Assembly: GCF_018141545.1 (NCBI RefSeq)
Contig: NZ_CP064357.1
Coordinates: 62,001 to 126,000 of the forward strand
Reading direction: 5' to 3'
Length of the DNA stretch: 64,000 bases
Source of the DNA: Miltoncostaea oceani
Lineage (GTDB): Bacteria > Actinomycetota > Thermoleophilia > Miltoncostaeales > Miltoncostaeaceae
A program made the translations under genes and the position numbers. The notes beneath the pieces were generated by a model. It saw nothing but the letters and a program-made list of their open reading frames with translations. It made no database searches and was not told the origin of the DNA. Shown here one piece after another: positions 8,212 through 62,180 of this stretch. Within the stretch, counting starts at the first letter, position 1; every line of letters begins with the position of its first letter.

Positions 8212-8625
8212 GGGGGCCTCCTTGAAGGGTCTGATGGCATCGCCTTGCGTTGACGCGCGGGGACGTGACCAATCCGGCACCGGCCCGTTCCCGGCCTGCT
8301 TGATGCCAGGTGAGCTCTCCCTGCCGCCTGCCCACGCGCGACTCATGAGGACACGATGTGACATCGGATGCGAGTCGCAGCTCAGGTCTTGACGAGTGCC
8401 ACTGAGCAGCTGCTCTAGCGGGGCCGGCAGCGACCGATCGGGCCGATACGTCCAAGAGGCCGCGACTCGCGTGGGAGGCCTCAGGAGGGCCTGTTACCGG
8501 CTCCTGGACGGCAGAGCGGCCGGTCTCTTCGCTCGCAGTGCCACGCGGAAGGCGATCGCCACCTCTCCGGAGCCCTCATCGCATAGCTTCCAGGGGACAG
8601 ATCCTCGCGAGCGGAGGTTGACGAC
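8212..8625. other. Intergenic region between divergent genes
   Basis: About 410 bases lie between the recombinase-like gene and the DUF6636-like gene. I see no convincing small gene, RNA or repeat. It must hold the promoters of both genes, but no consensus -35/-10 pair stands out. Confidence 0.5.
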
Positions 8626-9060
8626 ATGGACGCACCCGGCAGGACACGGCGGCGCCCTCGAAGGGTCGGTCTGCTCGCGACCATGCTGGCGGCGGCTATC
8701 GCGATCCCCCTCGTCTCTGCCGGGGGAGCGGCCGGCGCCACGGTCAGCTTCCGCACTCCGAGCAACAACGTCCACTGCTACTCGGACTCCGGCCCGAGCG
8801 TTCAGTGCTGGGTCCTCTCAGCGACCTGTCGCGGGTATGGAGGGGCGACCTACGCCTACTCGTGGGCCGTCCGCGGCAACGGCCGTCCGTCTCGCTTCTG
8901 CCCGGGCGACATCGTCCGCGGCTCCCGAGTGCTCCGCTACGGGCAGTCGCTCACGTTCCGCGGCACGAGGTGTGTCTCCCGGACGAGCGGACTGACCTGC
9001 ACCCGGACGGCGACGGGTCGCGGCTTCTTCCTCAGCCGGGAGCGTCAACGCATCTTCTAG
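8626..9060 (+). CDS. Secreted DUF6636-type protein
   Basis: ATG 8626 follows GGAGG at eight bases. Signal peptide in residues 1-38 (GLLATMLAAAIAIPLVSAGG). The mature domain has the order seen in DUF6636 proteins: FRTPSNNVHCYS, VQCWV, a Cys pair, FCPGDI, an LRYGQSL turn, CVSRTSGLTC, and GFFLSRERQRIF at the end. Six or more Cys residues probably form disulfides. The family is common in secreted proteins of actinobacteria and its role is unknown. Confidence 0.8.
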   Translation: MDAPGRTRRRPRRVGLLATMLAAAIAIPLVSAGGAAGATVSFRTPSNNVHCYSDSGPSVQCWVLSATCRGYGGATYAYSWAVRGNGRPSRFCPGDIVRGSRVLRYGQSLTFRGTRCVSRTSGLTCTRTATGRGFFLSRERQRIF

Positions 9061-9705
9061 GTGATCAGACACAGGGCGCCGGCCGGTGAGTGAACGCCGC
9101 GGGACGCACGGGCTGTCGCGCTCGACTTGATCGGCTGGCCCCTCATGCTCTGAGCCCGGATGCCGCCGGGTGGCGCCCCGGCACTGGCCCGGCGCCATGT
9201 GGGAGGGGAGGTGCTCCAACGGGAGGCCACGTCCGGCGGGGAGGTGCCCGGCGATGGATCCCGCGAAGGGCTCTGGGGCGCTCCCACGCGGACTGGTCCA
9301 GGCCTCCGTCATGTCGGAGCCGCCGGAGTGGGGAGGCCGAAGTGCGCCCCGGGATGACGGGCGTCCGGAAGGCCTCAGGCTCCGCCCGGGGGAGAGCAGC
9401 CCACGGGGGGGGGCGACCCGGCCAGCCCGGCGCCCGGTCCACGCGTGGGAGGAGCGCGCGACAGATGTAGGGGGTCACGCGGCCAGGGAGCCAGTCAGAG
9501 TCGGAAGGCGGGCATGGCCCTCGGGGAGCCAGCCCCTCCCGAGGCATGACCGATGCCTCGCTCCAGCGCGGTTGCCGAGCTCCAGGCTCCCGGGCCTGGC
9601 CGCAGAGACGTGGATGCCTCTAGAGACACCGGCGCCGCGGCACCTGGAGGAAGGCCCAATCTCCAGGCCCTGCGGATCGCTGACTCGCCCCTGTGAAGAG
9701 AAGGC

Positions 9706-9727
9706 GCCTAGCGGACGCCTAGCGGAC
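9706..9727. repeat. Two tandem copies of an 11-base unit
   Basis: GCCTAGCGGAC occurs twice without spacing (9706-9716 and 9717-9727) inside the gene-poor region. Could be chance slippage or part of an RNA structure. Confidence 0.5.
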
Positions 9728-9887
9728 GCGGGGCCAGCACGAGCTCCGCCCCATCACGCCATGCCCTTGAGCGGCCCATGGACACGGGACCGGGCACGCC
9801 CACCTCGACAGCCCCCATGGCACGGATGTCCCTCCCAACTTCCGCACCTTCAGACGTGCTCTCGGGCGCTCCTCAGACCCTAACCGC

Positions 9888-10595
9888 GAGATCCCTCTCC
9901 ACAAAAGGGATCTCAGCCATTCCCGTCCCTCGAAAGTGGTTATAGCCGGCACCGGACTTGGGCACCTAGCCCCACCGACCGGGTCACAAGAACCCCTTGA
10001 ACAAGCCAAAAAGCCCTTCCGCGGCCCCTCAGACAGACTCGCCATAAGTCCCCGTAGGCGAAAAGGAGGGAAGCTCGTTCACGAGGCAGATCAGAAGCCC
10101 ATAAGAGAGGGATCTGAACGCGACGAAGCCCACAGGAGAGGGGACTCTCCCTAAGGACTGTCGATCGAGGAGGAAAAGCGAAGGAGGGCAAGGGGACGCA
10201 GAGCCACTGAGTGGCCACGAAAGCAAGGGAGGGACTCCCGCGTTCATCCCAGGAGGAGGCTCCTCGGTCAGGGGAGAGATGACGAGGAAGAACAACGGAC
10301 GAGCTCACGGTCAGGAGCTCACGGGACGAACGCACGGGACAGACGACGGCCGAGCGTGACGAGGGAGCTGGAGACAGCAGTAGGGGGAGAGGGGCTGTGA
10401 GCTGCTGAGGGGAAGAGAGCAGCGAGGCGACGAGGGCTAGTCGACGGGGCCACGATCCGATGAGGCCACTCGGAGGCACACAGGGACTCGAAAGGGCGAA
10501 CGGGCAGTAGGGACGGAGAGCCGTCACCGTGAGAGCACGAGTGCCCGTCCCGTAGGAGAGCCAGCCGCCCTGCCTCTGGCTCTCTCCCCATGGGG
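9888..10595 (+). ncRNA. Candidate large structured non-coding RNA
   Basis: Purine-rich, T-poor segment with many short local helices on the plus strand. Examples are GAGATCCC/GGGATCTC (9888-9914), CAGCAG/CTGCTG (10375-10407), ACGGGCA/TGCCCGT (10500-10548) enclosing GACGG-AGAG-CCGTC, and GAGAGCCAG/CTGGCTCTC (10556-10584) followed by the palindrome CCCCATGGGG. The size, about 700 bases, is in the range of known giant bacterial RNAs, but I match it to no known class. The boundaries are guesses: the first and last strong hairpins. It could also be a purine-rich spacer with chance stems. Confidence 0.35.
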
Positions 10596-10723
10596 CCTCT
10601 TCCAGGCCGTTGGCGTGGGGAAGCACCGTGAGCACTCCACGAATTCCGGCCTGTGGCCTAGCGAGCTGTGGGAGAGGGAGGACTCAGGGCCCGTGTTGCT
10701 TTGGCTCTGCGGTCCGGTGGCCT

Positions 10724-10754
10724 GTGGGCCAGCGGCCTCGTGGGCCAGTGGCCT
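10724..10754. repeat. Direct repeat, 15-base unit
   Basis: GTGGGCCAGCGGCCT (10724-10738) and GTGGGCCAGTGGCCT (10740-10754) differ at one base. Further looser copies of GTGGCCT lie on both sides (10715-10830). Role unknown. Confidence 0.5.
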
Positions 10755-11125
10755 AGGGGTCGGGATAGGGAAGTGGGACTTGGGATGAGCTGAAGCTGAC
10801 CTAGTGGCCTGTTGGTCGAGTGGCCGGCCGGGATCGTCTGCTGAAGAGCGGAGCTGAGCGGGCGCCGGCTGAGAGGTCCCGAACCGGGGAGGTCCCCAGC
10901 AAGGAGCCGAGTCTTCCCTTCCCGCCCCTCGGGGCAAGGTGCGGCATGTCAACAGTCGCCAGAGAATCCGCGCTCGAGACCGTCCGTCGCTCCACGGCTT
11001 CCTGGGGCTGGCGGGCCGCTCGGGCTCACTCCGGCCCCGGTGGCAGATTGCGGCATGTCGATGCTCCGCAGGGATCGACGCGATGAAAGCCCGGCAGGTC
11101 TCAGCTCGGCTCCTACATTCAAGCG

Positions 11126-11944
11126 GTGGCCAGGGGCAAGAGAACGCGGAGAAATCTCGGTGTCGGACTTCGGTCTGGCGGCTCAGGCGCGGGTGCTTCA
11201 CCTGTGCCGTCCATCCGAACCCTCTCCGCTCGAGCTGCGCGGATGACAGCCCTCGGGGCGGCCTGCCTGGCCGGCATGGTCGCTCCCTCAGCGGCAGACG
11301 CGGCGACGCCGGCGACGGCACCGACGGACAGCCTCGCGTGGGCCGGCCGAGTGATCGCGCCGATCGACGCGCGGACCGCTCCGGACCCCGGCGCGAAGAA
11401 GATCACCCGGGTCTCTCCGACCGCTCCTCTGGCCGGCGGCGAGGCGGTGCTCAGCATCACCCGCTCCACCGTCGGCAAGGACGGCCGCGACTGGGTCGAG
11501 GTCCTCCTTCCGATCCGCCCGAGTGGCCGCCGCGGCTGGGTCCCCGCTGACGTGCTCTCCCTGCGCAAGGTGACCACTCGCATCGAGATCTCAACCGGGT
11601 CTCGCACCCTCACCCTCTTCCGCTCGGGCCGGCGGGTCCTCACGACGAAGGTCGCGGTCGGTAAGGCCGGCACCCCGACCCCGCTCGGGCGCTTCGCGAT
11701 CGCGGAGCTCATCAGGCTCCGTACCCCGGACGGCGCACTCGGGCCCGTCGTCCTTCCCCTCACGGCCTACTCACCGACCCTGAACGAGTTCGCCGGGGGC
11801 GATGGTCGCGTCGCCGTTCACGGCACGAGCTCGCCCGGCCTGCTCGGGACCCGCGCGTCGAACGGATGCATCCGGGTCCACAACAACGAGGTCCTGAAGC
11901 TGGCGCGCCTCGCCCGCCCCGGCACTCCCGTCCGCATTCGCTGA
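11126..11944 (+). CDS. Secreted L,D-transpeptidase (YkuD domain)
   Basis: Peptidoglycan cross-linking or anchoring enzyme outside the membrane. Signal peptide about residues 36-60, then an SH3-like domain (about 70-145, with GWVPADVLSL) and a YkuD catalytic domain. Key residues are His232 (AVHGTSS), Cys248 and Arg250 (SNGCIRVHN), the complete signature. The first 35 residues are basic and unusual for a signal peptide, so the true start may be ATG 11243 (MTALGAACLAG). Neither start has a clear ribosome site. Stands alone on the plus strand. Confidence 0.85.
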   Translation: MARGKRTRRNLGVGLRSGGSGAGASPVPSIRTLSARAARMTALGAACLAGMVAPSAADAATPATAPTDSLAWAGRVIAPIDARTAPDPGAKKITRVSPTAPLAGGEAVLSITRSTVGKDGRDWVEVLLPIRPSGRRGWVPADVLSLRKVTTRIEISTGSRTLTLFRSGRRVLTTKVAVGKAGTPTPLGRFAIAELIRLRTPDGALGPVVLPLTAYSPTLNEFAGGDGRVAVHGTSSPGLLGTRASNGCIRVHNNEVLKLARLARPGTPVRIR

Positions 11945-11978
11945 GCACTGACCGTCGGGCAGGCCCGAGCGACCCTCC

Positions 11979-12344
11979 CTAGCGGCGGGGCGCTTCTCGG
12001 ATCCACCCGCCGGATGGGTGGCGGCGGAAGCCCTTGGCCTCCATGCGCCGGTCGAGCCGCCGTCTGACCGGCGGGATCGAGTGGGCCAGCAGATAGAGCG
12101 GCTGGACCAGCAAGAGCGCGAGGATCATCGCTCCGGCCAGCGCCGCGATCAGTGTCAGGCCGAGCGGGATGTCCACTGGGGTGTGGAGCCCGAGCAGGGC
12201 GAGGATCGGCGCCACGAACGCCACGACGGTGACGCCGAAGTAGACCCCGTAGAGCCCGCCGGCGGATCGGAGCACTGACTGGATCACCACGGCGGCGGCG
12301 AGTGCCCCCAACCCGGTGAAGGCCGTGGTCGAGATGAAGGTCAT
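11979..12344 (-). CDS. Small membrane protein, three predicted helices
   Basis: 121 residues from ATG 12344 (a GTG directly before it is also possible). Three hydrophobic stretches: GLGALAAAVVIQSVL, VYFGVTVVAFVAPILALLGL and LGLTLIAALAGAMILALLLV. A basic C-terminal tail of 30 residues is probably cytoplasmic (RRRLDRRMEAKGFRRHP). No family recognised. Confidence 0.6.
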   Translation of the reverse strand: MTFISTTAFTGLGALAAAVVIQSVLRSAGGLYGVYFGVTVVAFVAPILALLGLHTPVDIPLGLTLIAALAGAMILALLLVQPLYLLAHSIPPVRRRLDRRMEAKGFRRHPSGGWIREAPRR

Positions 12345-19846: not shown

Positions 19847-22123
19847 TCAGGCGCCGATGCGATTCGGTCGGCGCCTGAGTCGGGCACGTCTCGCGCGCTT
19901 GCCGGCGCGAGGGCGCATCGACCAGAGACTGCCCATGAGCACACGGGCTGCGTCTCTGAGGTCGGCGCGAGAGGCCGTCCGGCCCTCACGGGCTCGAGAG
20001 GGGGCCGGAGCGGACAGGCTGCTCTCAGCCTCCGAGACGGCGCGCGGCGCTGGCACGTCCGCGGCGATCGGCACGACCTCGACAGGCGCCGGCTGCTCGG
20101 CCGACTGACGCCACCGCGGGCTGCGCTCGAGCGCCGTTGCGGGCAGGTCAGCCATCAGCTCGTCGAGCTCCGCCCGCCCGAGCTGCTCGCCCGCGAGGAG
20201 CGCGACGGCGAGGGCGTCGAGCGCACCCGAGTGGGCCTGCAGGAGTGCGTAGGCGTCGAGGTATGCGTGCTCGGCCATCCGGGCCACTTCGACATCGATC
20301 TGCTGACGGGTGGTATCGGCGGTGCTGTAGGGGCCATTCGCCATCCCGGTGATCAGCTGACCGACCAGCTCGGAGAAGCCGAAGCGTTCGATCGCCGTGC
20401 GCGCCATCGTGTTGACCTGCTCGAGGTCGTTGGCGGCGCCGCTCGAGATGTTCGAGAAGCGCAACTGCTCGGCGGCGCGTCCGGCCATGGCGACGACCAT
20501 CTTCTCGTGGAGCTGCTGGGGGGAGAACAGCGATGAGTCCTCCGAGCCGAACATGGCGAGGCCGGCGGTCGCGCCTCGCGCGCTGATCGAGACCCGCTGG
20601 GTCTTCGGGTGGGTGACGCAGAGCTCAGCAGCGAGGGCGTGTCCAGCCTCGTGCCAGGCGATCCGCTCGATCTCACCCTCGGCGAGGGCGCGGTCCTTAC
20701 GTCGCGGTCCGGCGATCGAGCGCAGCATCCCCTCCTCGAGGTCGGCGAGGGTGATCCGGTCCCGGTCATCGCGCGCGGCCATGATCGCGGCCTCGTTGAC
20801 GAGCTGGGCCAGGTCGGCGCCCGAGAAGCCCCCGGTGTACGAGGCGATCTTCTCGAGGTCGGCCGTGTCCTCCATCGGCATACCCTTGGCGTGGACTCCG
20901 AGGATCTCGAGGCGGCCCTTCTCGGCGGGGAGTGGCACGTTGACGTGGCGGTCGAACCGCCCCGGCCGCGTCAGCGCCTTGTCCAGGATGTCGATCCGGT
21001 TGGTCGCGGCGATCACGATGATCCGGTCGCGGGTGCCGAAGCCGTCGAGCTCGACCAGGAGGGCGTTGAGCGTTCCCTCCCGCTCGCTGTCACCCTGGTT
21101 GCCCGAGCCGCCGCCGGCGCGGGCCCGCCCGATGGCGTCGATCTCGTCCATGAAGATGACGGCGCCCTCGGCGTGCTCGCGGGCCTTGGCGAAGAGGTCT
21201 CGGACCCGTGAGGAGCCGACGCCGACGTAGGTGTCGACGAAGTCGGACCCCGACATCGCGTAGAACGGCACCCCGGCCTCGCCGGCGACTGCCTTGGCGA
21301 GGAGGGTCTTGCCGGTCCCGGGAGGCCCCTGGAGGATGACCCCGCGGGGCATCTTGGCGCCGACCCGGGTGAACTTGACGGGGTTGCTGAGGAAGCTGAC
21401 GGTCTCGGACAGCTCCTCGACGCACTCGTCGCAGCCGGCGACGTCGCTGAAACGCACCTCGGGAGGCGCGGCGAGGGCGGTCTTGGAGATCTTGCCGTGC
21501 CCGGCCATCCGACCGCCACCGCCGCCGCCGCCACGGAAGCGACGGATCAGGACGATGCTGATCAGGAAGAAGGCGCCGATGGCGGCGAAGATCAACGGGG
21601 TGATGAGATACCGGGTCCAGCCGGTCGGGCCGCTGGACTGCCCGCTCTCGTTGTCGCCGGCGCTCGGCGGAGTGACCGTGACGACTCCGTTCTGGGTGAG
21701 GAACTCGTCGAGGCCGTAGACGGTGGGGAGCTTGTCGTCGCCGGTCCGCGCGGCGCCGTTGGCCACCGCGAACTCCGAGCCGACCTGAGGATCCGGGATC
21801 TGCGCGGAGGCGAGCTTGCCCTCCTCGTCGCGGGCCACGATCCACTCGCGTGCCCGGTCGATCGCAACGACGTTGACCCGGTCCAGGCGGATCGCCTCGA
21901 CCATGCCGGGGTAGCCGATGTCGGGAGCCGAGCCGCCGTTGGAGAAGACGTTCACCAGGGACAGCGGGGCGGTGGGCTCTGCGTCCTGGGAGAGGGCCAT
22001 CGAGGGCAGGGCCATCAGAGCGCCCAGCGACACTGCGATGCGGAGGAGGGTCGATCGATGAGTGGTCACGGGTGTGAGTCTCTCAATCGCGTCTTCGTGA
22101 TTGGGGAGATTTCCTCTCCGCAT
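19847..22123 (-). CDS. ftsH: FtsH-type membrane AAA+ zinc protease
   Basis: 758 residues from ATG 22123, three bases after AGGAGG (close, but the best site). Two membrane helices (26-44 and 173-194) flank a 125-residue periplasmic-side domain. Then a Gly run and the AAA module: Walker A GPPGTGKT (266-273), Walker B VIFMDEID (322-329), and second region of homology ATNRIDILD...RPGRFDR. The peptidase domain has HEAGH (491-495) and a later Asp ligand (AANDLEQ). All key residues are intact. FtsH degrades membrane and short-lived soluble proteins. Divergent from a SecY paralogue across an unusual repeat region, so it may guard that translocon. Possibly a second copy of ftsH in the genome. Confidence 0.9.
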   Translation of the reverse strand: MRRGNLPNHEDAIERLTPVTTHRSTLLRIAVSLGALMALPSMALSQDAEPTAPLSLVNVFSNGGSAPDIGYPGMVEAIRLDRVNVVAIDRAREWIVARDEEGKLASAQIPDPQVGSEFAVANGAARTGDDKLPTVYGLDEFLTQNGVVTVTPPSAGDNESGQSSGPTGWTRYLITPLIFAAIGAFFLISIVLIRRFRGGGGGGGRMAGHGKISKTALAAPPEVRFSDVAGCDECVEELSETVSFLSNPVKFTRVGAKMPRGVILQGPPGTGKTLLAKAVAGEAGVPFYAMSGSDFVDTYVGVGSSRVRDLFAKAREHAEGAVIFMDEIDAIGRARAGGGSGNQGDSEREGTLNALLVELDGFGTRDRIIVIAATNRIDILDKALTRPGRFDRHVNVPLPAEKGRLEILGVHAKGMPMEDTADLEKIASYTGGFSGADLAQLVNEAAIMAARDDRDRITLADLEEGMLRSIAGPRRKDRALAEGEIERIAWHEAGHALAAELCVTHPKTQRVSISARGATAGLAMFGSEDSSLFSPQQLHEKMVVAMAGRAAEQLRFSNISSGAANDLEQVNTMARTAIERFGFSELVGQLITGMANGPYSTADTTRQQIDVEVARMAEHAYLDAYALLQAHSGALDALAVALLAGEQLGRAELDELMADLPATALERSPRWRQSAEQPAPVEVVPIAADVPAPRAVSEAESSLSAPAPSRAREGRTASRADLRDAARVLMGSLWSMRPRAGKRARRARLRRRPNRIGA

Positions 22124-22133
22124 CAGCCTCCTG

Positions 22134-22192
22134 GGGGGAGGGGGCAATTTTTGACCCCCCTGCCGCAGGGGGAGGGGGCAATTTTTGACCCC
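22134..22192 (-). repeat. Two identical 25-base repeats upstream of ftsH
   Basis: Identical copies at 22134-22158 and 22168-22192, each with a G-run block, CAATTTTTGACCCC and C-runs. The first copy ends about ten bases from the ftsH start and overlaps its leader. Between them CCCCCTG-CCG-CAGGGGG can form a hairpin. G-runs on one strand could also form a quadruplex. Likely control elements of ftsH at DNA or RNA level. Confidence 0.75.
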
Positions 22193-22272
22193 ACAAAAGA
22201 AAGAGTGACTAACTAGGTCTTCTTGGAGGAGAGGAAGAGCTAGGTCAGAGAGATCACTGAGACACAGGAATA

Positions 22273-22329
22273 GTGGACTAGGGGGATAGGCCCTAGTGGA
22301 CTAGGGGGATAGGCCCTAGTGGACTAGGG
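22273..22329 (+). repeat. Tandem 23-base repeats with internal dyad upstream of secY-like gene
   Basis: Two perfect 23-base units (22273-22295, 22296-22318) and an 11-base partial third. Across each unit junction the dyad CTAGGG-N7-CCCTAG is formed, a typical operator symmetry. The array ends about 55 bases before the SecY start, so a regulator or the promoter could be there. Confidence 0.8.
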
Positions 22330-22385
22330 CGCGCGCGAGAAGAGGATCCGACGAGGGTGGCGCCGGCGCGGCTAGCGTCGCCGTC

Positions 22386-23573
22386 ATGGCGAGGCGACCC
22401 ATCTCCGAAGGCATCCGCCTCCGCAACCGGATCCTGATCACCCTCGCGCTCCTGCTTGCCTACCGTCTGCTCGCCCACGTGCCGGCTCCCGGGGTGAACG
22501 ATCAGTTGAGTGCGGCATCCACCGATGCGCTCCTCAGGGCAGCGGGCCTCTTCGGGGGTTCCGCCGCCGGTGTCGTCTCGATCGTCGCGCTCGGAGTCGG
22601 CCCCCTCGTCCTGTCAGCGATCGCCTACCAGGTGGCCGAGCGGGTGATCCCCTATCTCTCCCAACTGCGCGACTCGGGCGCTGACGACAAGCGCAACCGC
22701 GTCAAGCGGTTGCTGGCCTGCGTCATCGCTCTTGGTCAGGCGGCGACGCTCGCCTCGAACCTCAGCGGGCCGGAGGCGACGGATTACCTGCTCGTGACGC
22801 TGTCGTTGTTCGCCGGCGCGGTGGTGGTGGTCTGGTGCGCCGACCGCATCAGCCAGAACGGGATCGGCCAAGGAACCTCGCTGCTGATCGTGGCCTCGCT
22901 CCTGCCGATGCTCACCGGCCAGTTCTCCTCCTGGTCCTCATCGGGGCCCGCGGCGATCCTCACCGGCAGCCTCGTCGTCGGCGTCGTGATCCTGGTGATC
23001 CTCGGCCTGAGCCTCCACCAGCTGCGCCTCCCGGTCATGCTGGCCGGCGGCCGGACCTCGGCGTCGGCCAGCTACCTGCCGATCGGCTTCATCCTCTCGG
23101 GGGTGACGCCGGTGATCTTCGCGGTCGCGGTCCTCAGCGCGCCGGCGACGTTCATCCCCATGCTCGGCCTCGACGCCTCCGCTCTGGATGTCATCGCGCC
23201 GACGAGCTGGGGTGGCCTCGCCCTCACCGCGGTCCTCGTCGGCTTCTTCAGCATCACCTACGCCCGCTTCGTCTTCGACCCTTGGCAGGTGGCTGCAGCC
23301 CTCGCCCGCTCGGGCGCCTTCATCCCGGGCCACGCCCCCGGGCCCGCGACGGCCGAGCTGATCGCCGCCAGCGCGAGCCGGAACGTCTATGTCGGCGCCG
23401 GAGCTCTCGCCGGGCTCTCCATCGCTCCTCGCGTCCTCGGTGAGCTCGTGCCCGCCCTACCGCAGATGCCCGCGGGGACGCTCCTGCTGATCGTGGTGGG
23501 TGTCGGCATCAGCGTCGGCTCGAGGCTCCTCGCCGAGATCTCCACCCTCAAGGACCGGTCGGCCGTCGCCTGA
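22386..23573 (+). CDS. Divergent SecY translocon paralogue
   Basis: 395 residues, about ten membrane helices. SecY landmarks are visible: RNRILITLALLLAYRL at the start, SQNGIGQGTSLLI after the fifth helix, LPIGFILSGVTPVIFA, and ARSGAFIPGHAPGPATAELI near helix nine. It is shorter than the usual 430-440 residues, and loops that normally contact the ribosome or SecA are reduced. No SecE, SecG or SecA gene accompanies it and no ribosomal protein operon is near, so it is not the housekeeping copy. Possibly an accessory or regulatory translocon subunit. Paired divergently with ftsH. Confidence 0.85.
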   Translation: MARRPISEGIRLRNRILITLALLLAYRLLAHVPAPGVNDQLSAASTDALLRAAGLFGGSAAGVVSIVALGVGPLVLSAIAYQVAERVIPYLSQLRDSGADDKRNRVKRLLACVIALGQAATLASNLSGPEATDYLLVTLSLFAGAVVVVWCADRISQNGIGQGTSLLIVASLLPMLTGQFSSWSSSGPAAILTGSLVVGVVILVILGLSLHQLRLPVMLAGGRTSASASYLPIGFILSGVTPVIFAVAVLSAPATFIPMLGLDASALDVIAPTSWGGLALTAVLVGFFSITYARFVFDPWQVAAALARSGAFIPGHAPGPATAELIAASASRNVYVGAGALAGLSIAPRVLGELVPALPQMPAGTLLLIVVGVGISVGSRLLAEISTLKDRSAVA

Positions 23574-61757: not shown

Positions 61758-62180
61758 ATGGCCGGCCTGTTGCGCTCGTCCCTGACGCTCGGCGCGATGC
61801 TCGCCCTGGCTCTCTTCGCCATGACCGGCGTCGGCTGGGCCGCAGCGGACAGCACCCCCTCAGCTCCAGAGGCGATCGCCCTGGATGGGCTGAAGTCCGA
61901 GGACGCCACGACCAAGCGATGCCGCACCGGGGGCTTCTACGGCACCTCGCGGATCTCGGTCAAGAGGGTGATCGGAAAGGTCTCTTGTCGGGCGGCCGGC
62001 GGCATCGCACGCGCAGCGGTGGTCTATCGCGTCAACTCCGACTTCCCGGACACGTTCTGCCACCGCGGCTGGTGCTGGAGGTTCGGCGAGTTCCGCGGGG
62101 TGGGACCGGGCGCCAGCATCGTGACCTTCGTCGGGCGTCGTGGCGAGATGCAGATCGGTGCGACCCAGTCGGTGAGCTAG
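61758..62180 (+). CDS. Small secreted protein
   Basis: 140 residues. Signal peptide (SLTLGAMLALALFAMTGVGW). The mature domain has four Cys (KRCRTGG, VSCRAAG, TFCHRGWCWRF) and is probably a small beta sandwich. A strong hairpin follows the stop. No family recognised. Confidence 0.7.
   Translation: MAGLLRSSLTLGAMLALALFAMTGVGWAAADSTPSAPEAIALDGLKSEDATTKRCRTGGFYGTSRISVKRVIGKVSCRAAGGIARAAVVYRVNSDFPDTFCHRGWCWRFGEFRGVGPGASIVTFVGRRGEMQIGATQSVS

Follow-up and report, generated by a model that had tools for sequence, protein, structure and literature searches.

A candidate orphan large noncoding RNA gene in a strand-asymmetric gap of an actinobacterial megaplasmid or second chromosome

What occupies the long gap between a gene for a DUF6636 secreted protein and an L,D-transpeptidase gene (Table 1), in which no protein gene can be recognized? 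The gap is part of a window of 64,000 nucleotides (the whole stretch of DNA analyzed; positions 62001 to 126000 of contig C2), with the segment of interest at about 72 kb of the replicon and a large serine recombinase gene upstream of the gap on the opposite strand. An earlier note on this DNA saw no credible gene here, and the present analysis bears this out. The open reading frames in the gap have flat GC content over the three codon positions, and their codon scores are negative, from -0.32 to -0.72 per codon against a reference of +0.26 ± 0.09 for real genes of 150 to 300 aa on the same replicon. None of the frames matched an NCBIfam family, the three longest had no Pfam match, and inspection of all six frames revealed no trace of a reading frame. 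A long noncoding stretch without coding signal is a criterion for large structured bacterial noncoding RNAs, and the gap is such a stretch. Syntenic orthologs of the flanking genes were sought among relatives and none was clear; because no homolog of the stretch itself was found either, the locus looks lineage specific.

The composition of the stretch is real, unusual, and clearly beyond chance. Optimal segmentation of 8300-12000 yielded two unusual adjacent segments, a C-rich, A-rich 5′ arm and a purine-rich, T-poor core, between which the GC skew changes sign at 10060. The 460-nt core contains 131 A against 40 T and 186 G against 103 C, and each 60-base line of the plus strand between 10000 and 10540 holds only 3 to 7 T. 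The T scarcity that the earlier note had described for 9888-10595 is therefore present, but its purine-rich range extended too far in the 5′ direction, as the purine fraction of the arm is 0.435 and the purine-rich part proper is the core. Even so, the purine fraction over those 708 nt is 0.610, compared with 0.499 ± 0.020 in 90 noncoding windows of equal length from this replicon, a departure of 5.5 standard deviations that none of the 90 equals. The core also has the largest purine skew in approximately 1.2 Mb inspected in 500-nt windows (all but 2 kb of the 816-kb replicon, together with contig 3, 220 kb of contig 1, and 160 kb from a genome of the same genus), where the peaks ranked second and third are coding. 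Within one strand of neutral noncoding DNA, A is expected to approximate T and G to approximate C. Since this symmetry is broken, strand-specific constraint is the natural reading, and the plus strand is pointed to because the RNase P RNA of the same genome is skewed in the same direction (A.205, T.116, G.361, C.318, purine fraction.566). The skew is smaller in the tmRNA of the replicon (A.193, T.173).

Structure beyond composition is apparent in hairpins and in fold definition but not in folding energy; these statistics were all applied to one and the same locus. The range 9888-10595 contains seven local stems of 6 bp or more, compared with 2.9 ± 1.5 in dinucleotide shuffles (p = 0.002 for paired bases; about 0.002 to 0.005 for the excess overall), and neither flank has any hairpin excess over its shuffles. 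A larger hairpin z was obtained for 2 of the 90 other noncoding windows, of which one lies at the tRNA cluster near 351 kb. The hairpin count is moderately beyond chance. The minimum free energy is not special against dinucleotide shuffles, with z = -0.6 for 9888-10595, -2.2 for 10060-10560, and +0.1 for 9800-10620; when shuffling was confined to 65-nt blocks, z was -1.8. The power of this test is low here, since the RNase P RNA is hardly singled out (z = -1.1) and 300-nt windows drawn at random from the replicon have a mean z of -0.6 ± 1.3; the tmRNA scored -2.4 and a weak RNase P RNA match on the replicon -0.8. More telling is the definition of the fold: positional entropy averages 0.553 over 9800-10620, compared with 1.03 ± 0.23 in shuffles, and 1 of 100 shuffles was as low. 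When other noncoding windows of the replicon were tested strand by strand, 4 of 110 tests gave an entropy as low as this, and the predicted fold is better defined on the plus than on the minus strand.

Folding of 9800-10620, with limits taken from the segmentation, predicts two domains from the single sequence (Table 1). In domain I, the C-rich arm would be joined to the G-rich part by a ladder of helices, pairing mainly with 10167-10444; the closing pairs join TCGAC-AGCCC (9805-9814) to GGGCT (10434-10438) and GTCGA (10440-10444). Long-range pairing of this kind would be expected to give the two segments opposite GC skews, as observed. The C-rich arm, the predicted partner of the G-rich part, had been missed by the earlier note. 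The helices that the note had listed exist: the ACGGGCA/TGCCCGT stem (10500-10506 / 10542-10548), the GACGG/CCGTC stem within it (10512-10516 / 10521-10525), and a 9-pair stem, GAGAGCCAG/CTGGCTCTC, which lies inside a 10-bp stem near the proposed 3′ end. Both hairpins of the predicted three-way junction carry AGAG loops. No T-run follows the 10-bp hairpin, and neither a promoter-like site for the candidate nor a plus-strand terminator-like site was found. Three copies of GGCCTGTGGCCTAGCG-like units are present at 10648-10758 of the window, 3′ of the candidate.

Table 1. Features of the gap, its neighbors, and the candidate RNA (window positions unless marked C2)
Feature	Position	Strand	Remarks
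DUF6636 secreted-protein gene	8626-9060		5′ neighbor of the gap
Noncoding gap	9061-11125		Between the DUF6636 and L,D-transpeptidase genes
L,D-transpeptidase gene	11126-11944	+	3′ neighbor of the gap; same strand as the candidate RNA
Candidate RNA	9800-10620	+	Proposed extent ~820 nt; ends placed from segmentation and closing helices
C-rich, A-rich 5′ arm	9800-10059	+	A.223, C.408, G.212, T.158
Purine-rich, T-poor core	10060-10519	+	A.285, C.224, G.404, T.087
Predicted domain I	9805-10444	+	Closing helices, probability 0.99
9-bp hairpin GAGATCCCT/AGGGATCTC	9888-9914	+	Probability 0.99
6-bp hairpin GAGCTC/GAGCTC	10301-10320	+	Probability 1.00
Predicted domain II	10450-10618	+	Closed by 10450-10477 / 10595-10618
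Predicted three-way junction	10500-10548	+	ACGGGCA/TGCCCGT closing GACGG-AGAG-CCGTC and CGTG-AGAG-CACG
10-bp hairpin GGAGAGCCAG/CTGGCTCTCT	10555-10585	+	10555-10564 / 10576-10585; near proposed 3′ end
Intein-bearing loci	C2: 6155-11119, 48602-51769, 323619-327497

Homologs and known classes were sought widely. The earlier note had matched the stretch to no known class from the letters; Rfam 15 agrees, with no match in the whole window at gathering score, including GOLLD, ROOL, and OLE, and nothing overlapping the gap in a relaxed search of 8400-11700 up to E = 5. The note had also proposed a search for homologous regions, which came back empty across several hundred actinobacterial genomes, plasmids, and phages. 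Specifically, blastn found no homolog of the gap in 100 relatives and none of 9640-10900 in 399 genomes of the class and 396 of the phylum (overlapping sets that amount to several hundred different genomes); the only matches, of approximately 20 to 60 nt at scattered places, were attributed to chance. No homolog of the candidate was found in collections of plasmids and phages, and searches of viral contigs with exact 20- and 21-mers gave no match. A covariance model (R1) built from the one sequence at 10478-10594 matched only itself in the replicon and 299 genomes of the class. A sister replicon was sought through the DNA polymerase III gene, and the best relatives are approximately 50% identical, leaving no replicon to align. 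No purine-rich segment flanks the L,D-transpeptidase and DUF6636 homologs examined in relatives. GOLLD, sought in control genomes as a yardstick, was not found in them.

The host contig, C2, is 815,643 bp long and accompanies a contig of 3.68 Mb. Its GC content is 70.1%, compared with 74.4% in a sample of the chromosome, and its GC skew has two arms, as in a complete replicon. We interpret C2 as either a megaplasmid or a second chromosome. No 16S rRNA was found anywhere in the genome, so that this search is uninformative about the second replicon. C2 carries approximately 40 tRNA genes, including one for selenocysteine tRNA, with clusters near 351 to 363, 489 to 502, and 671 kb, and a tmRNA with the tag ADNRLALAA, an unusually full translation kit. 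A second, short RNase P RNA match (C2:377614-377873; 64.8 bits, below the gathering score) contains the stretches GAGGAAAGTCCGGACA and ACAGAATCCGGCTTACAG; a normal RNase P RNA is encoded on contig C1, and C2 possibly has its own. C2 also encodes intein-containing forms of DNA polymerase III alpha, of a RecD2-type helicase, and of ribonucleotide reductase, as well as signaling proteins (kinase, diguanylate cyclase, and SpoIIE-type). Positions 19847-23573 of the window contain genes for an FtsH-type protease and SecY, and between these genes is a perfect 23-bp tandem repeat, TAGTGGACTAGGGGGATAGGCCC, in 2.6 copies (22271-22329).

Several explanations other than an RNA gene were weighed. The stretch could be decayed or foreign DNA, the relic of a gene or mobile element whose function is lost and whose composition is accidental, as might be expected of lineage-specific accessory DNA that adjoins a recombinase gene, has no homolog, and sits on a replicon of low coding fraction (~0.76 by a crude gene caller). 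Decay, however, pushes A towards T and G towards C, whereas A is more than three times T in the core; no frame has left a trace, and no other tested noncoding window of the replicon has such a purine extreme. We regard decayed or foreign DNA as unlikely. Alternatively, the stretch could be a strand-asymmetric element whose inverted repeats work as DNA; a transfer origin, a secondary site of replication or partition, and a G-rich tract that forms R-loops would all be of this kind. The flip of GC skew at 10060, the excess of inverted repeats on either strand, and the position on a second replicon beside a serine recombinase gene are consistent with this. Against it, the stretch contains no iteron-like repeat family, the plus-strand fold is more definite than that of the minus strand, and the GC skew of the replicon has its minimum at approximately 814 kb and its maximum at approximately 366 kb, not at 72 kb; on the whole, a DNA-level element is unlikely. 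A replication origin at the candidate was rejected on these skew extremes, and the KOPS motif GGGNAGGG has no occurrence in the stretch.

That the transcript is the long untranslated leader or a regulatory RNA of the L,D-transpeptidase gene, rather than a stand-alone RNA, is suggested by its location directly upstream on the same strand. Yet approximately 500 nt of DNA of ordinary composition and without hairpin excess separate the candidate from the gene start at 11126, and the L,D-transpeptidase loci examined in relatives have no such purine-rich flanking segment, which makes a leader improbable. We consider it highly improbable that a protein gene was missed by the family models. One such case, a minus-strand frame at 9940-10635, is open over 231 codons, but 9% of locally shuffled sequences carry an equally long frame, stops on the minus strand being rare because the plus strand is T-poor. 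The frame has GC contents of.68/.60/.64 at its codon positions and a codon score of -0.48 per codon, while reference genes of 150 to 300 aa score at least +0.03; as a gene, it was rejected.

A large structured RNA on the plus strand is the candidate that best fits noncoding DNA that breaks strand symmetry, forms excess hairpins, and has a well-defined predicted fold. We give about an even chance to an orphan, lineage-specific large noncoding RNA gene at approximately 9800-10620, and somewhat under an even chance to the narrower proposal of a new giant-RNA class of approximately 820 nt, with two domains, restricted to a single megaplasmid lineage among high-GC actinobacteria. The suggestion of a giant RNA in the earlier note thus gains from composition, hairpins, and predicted fold, but it is weakened by the lack of a homolog or Rfam class and by a folding energy not above that of shuffles; covariation is the standard of proof for large structured RNAs. 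Transcription, ends, fold in the cell, and function are what we infer for such a gene. In its transcript, the C-rich 5′ arm would pair with the G-rich, A-rich 3′ part to form a long domain, followed by a compact 3′ domain holding the three-way junction, and unpaired A-rich stretches would be free to make tertiary contacts or to bind protein. The RNA would then act in trans as a structured, non-protein-coding molecule, as do OLE, ROOL, and GOLLD, and would serve its replicon. Bacteria are known to have no more than a handful of giant structured RNAs, whose functions are mostly open. If the candidate is real, an orphan on a megaplasmid would represent a separate origin of the giant-RNA type, and strand-asymmetric noncoding composition could flag such genes without homologs in high-GC genomes, in which folding energy is a weak criterion.

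The tRNA-rich megaplasmid setting recalls the known giant RNAs, by analogy and not as membership in a class. GOLLD (RF02032) is likewise giant and ornate and occurs near tRNA arrays on phages and other mobile DNA, including those of actinobacteria (PMC6582537, PMC12286853); in mycobacteria it lies inside the tRNA arrays (PMC6582537), and arrays with tmRNA and structured RNA are found on mycobacterial plasmids, phages, and chromosomes (PMC5966550). The candidate differs in having no Rfam match or homologs, and it lies at 72 kb, approximately 280 kb from the nearest tRNA cluster of C2 (the clusters begin at ~351 kb), although the tRNA-array location of GOLLD is frequent rather than strictly defining. 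ROOL, too, is large, structured, and borne by mobile elements, frequently close to tRNA islands, as in phages (PMC12286853), but belongs to a different host group, and the candidate does not match its Rfam model. OLE, 577 nt in Clostridium acetobutylicum (PMC12286853), resembles the candidate in size class and elaborate fold and acts untranslated; unlike the orphan described here, which has no Rfam match, it is widespread and supported by covariation. A further parallel in setting is the species-specific 520-nt RNA of the Lactobacillus salivarius megaplasmid, which RNA-seq showed to be transcribed above the level of 16S rRNA (PMC5643018), whereas the candidate, which would likewise be a lineage-specific long RNA on a putative megaplasmid, is predicted from sequence.
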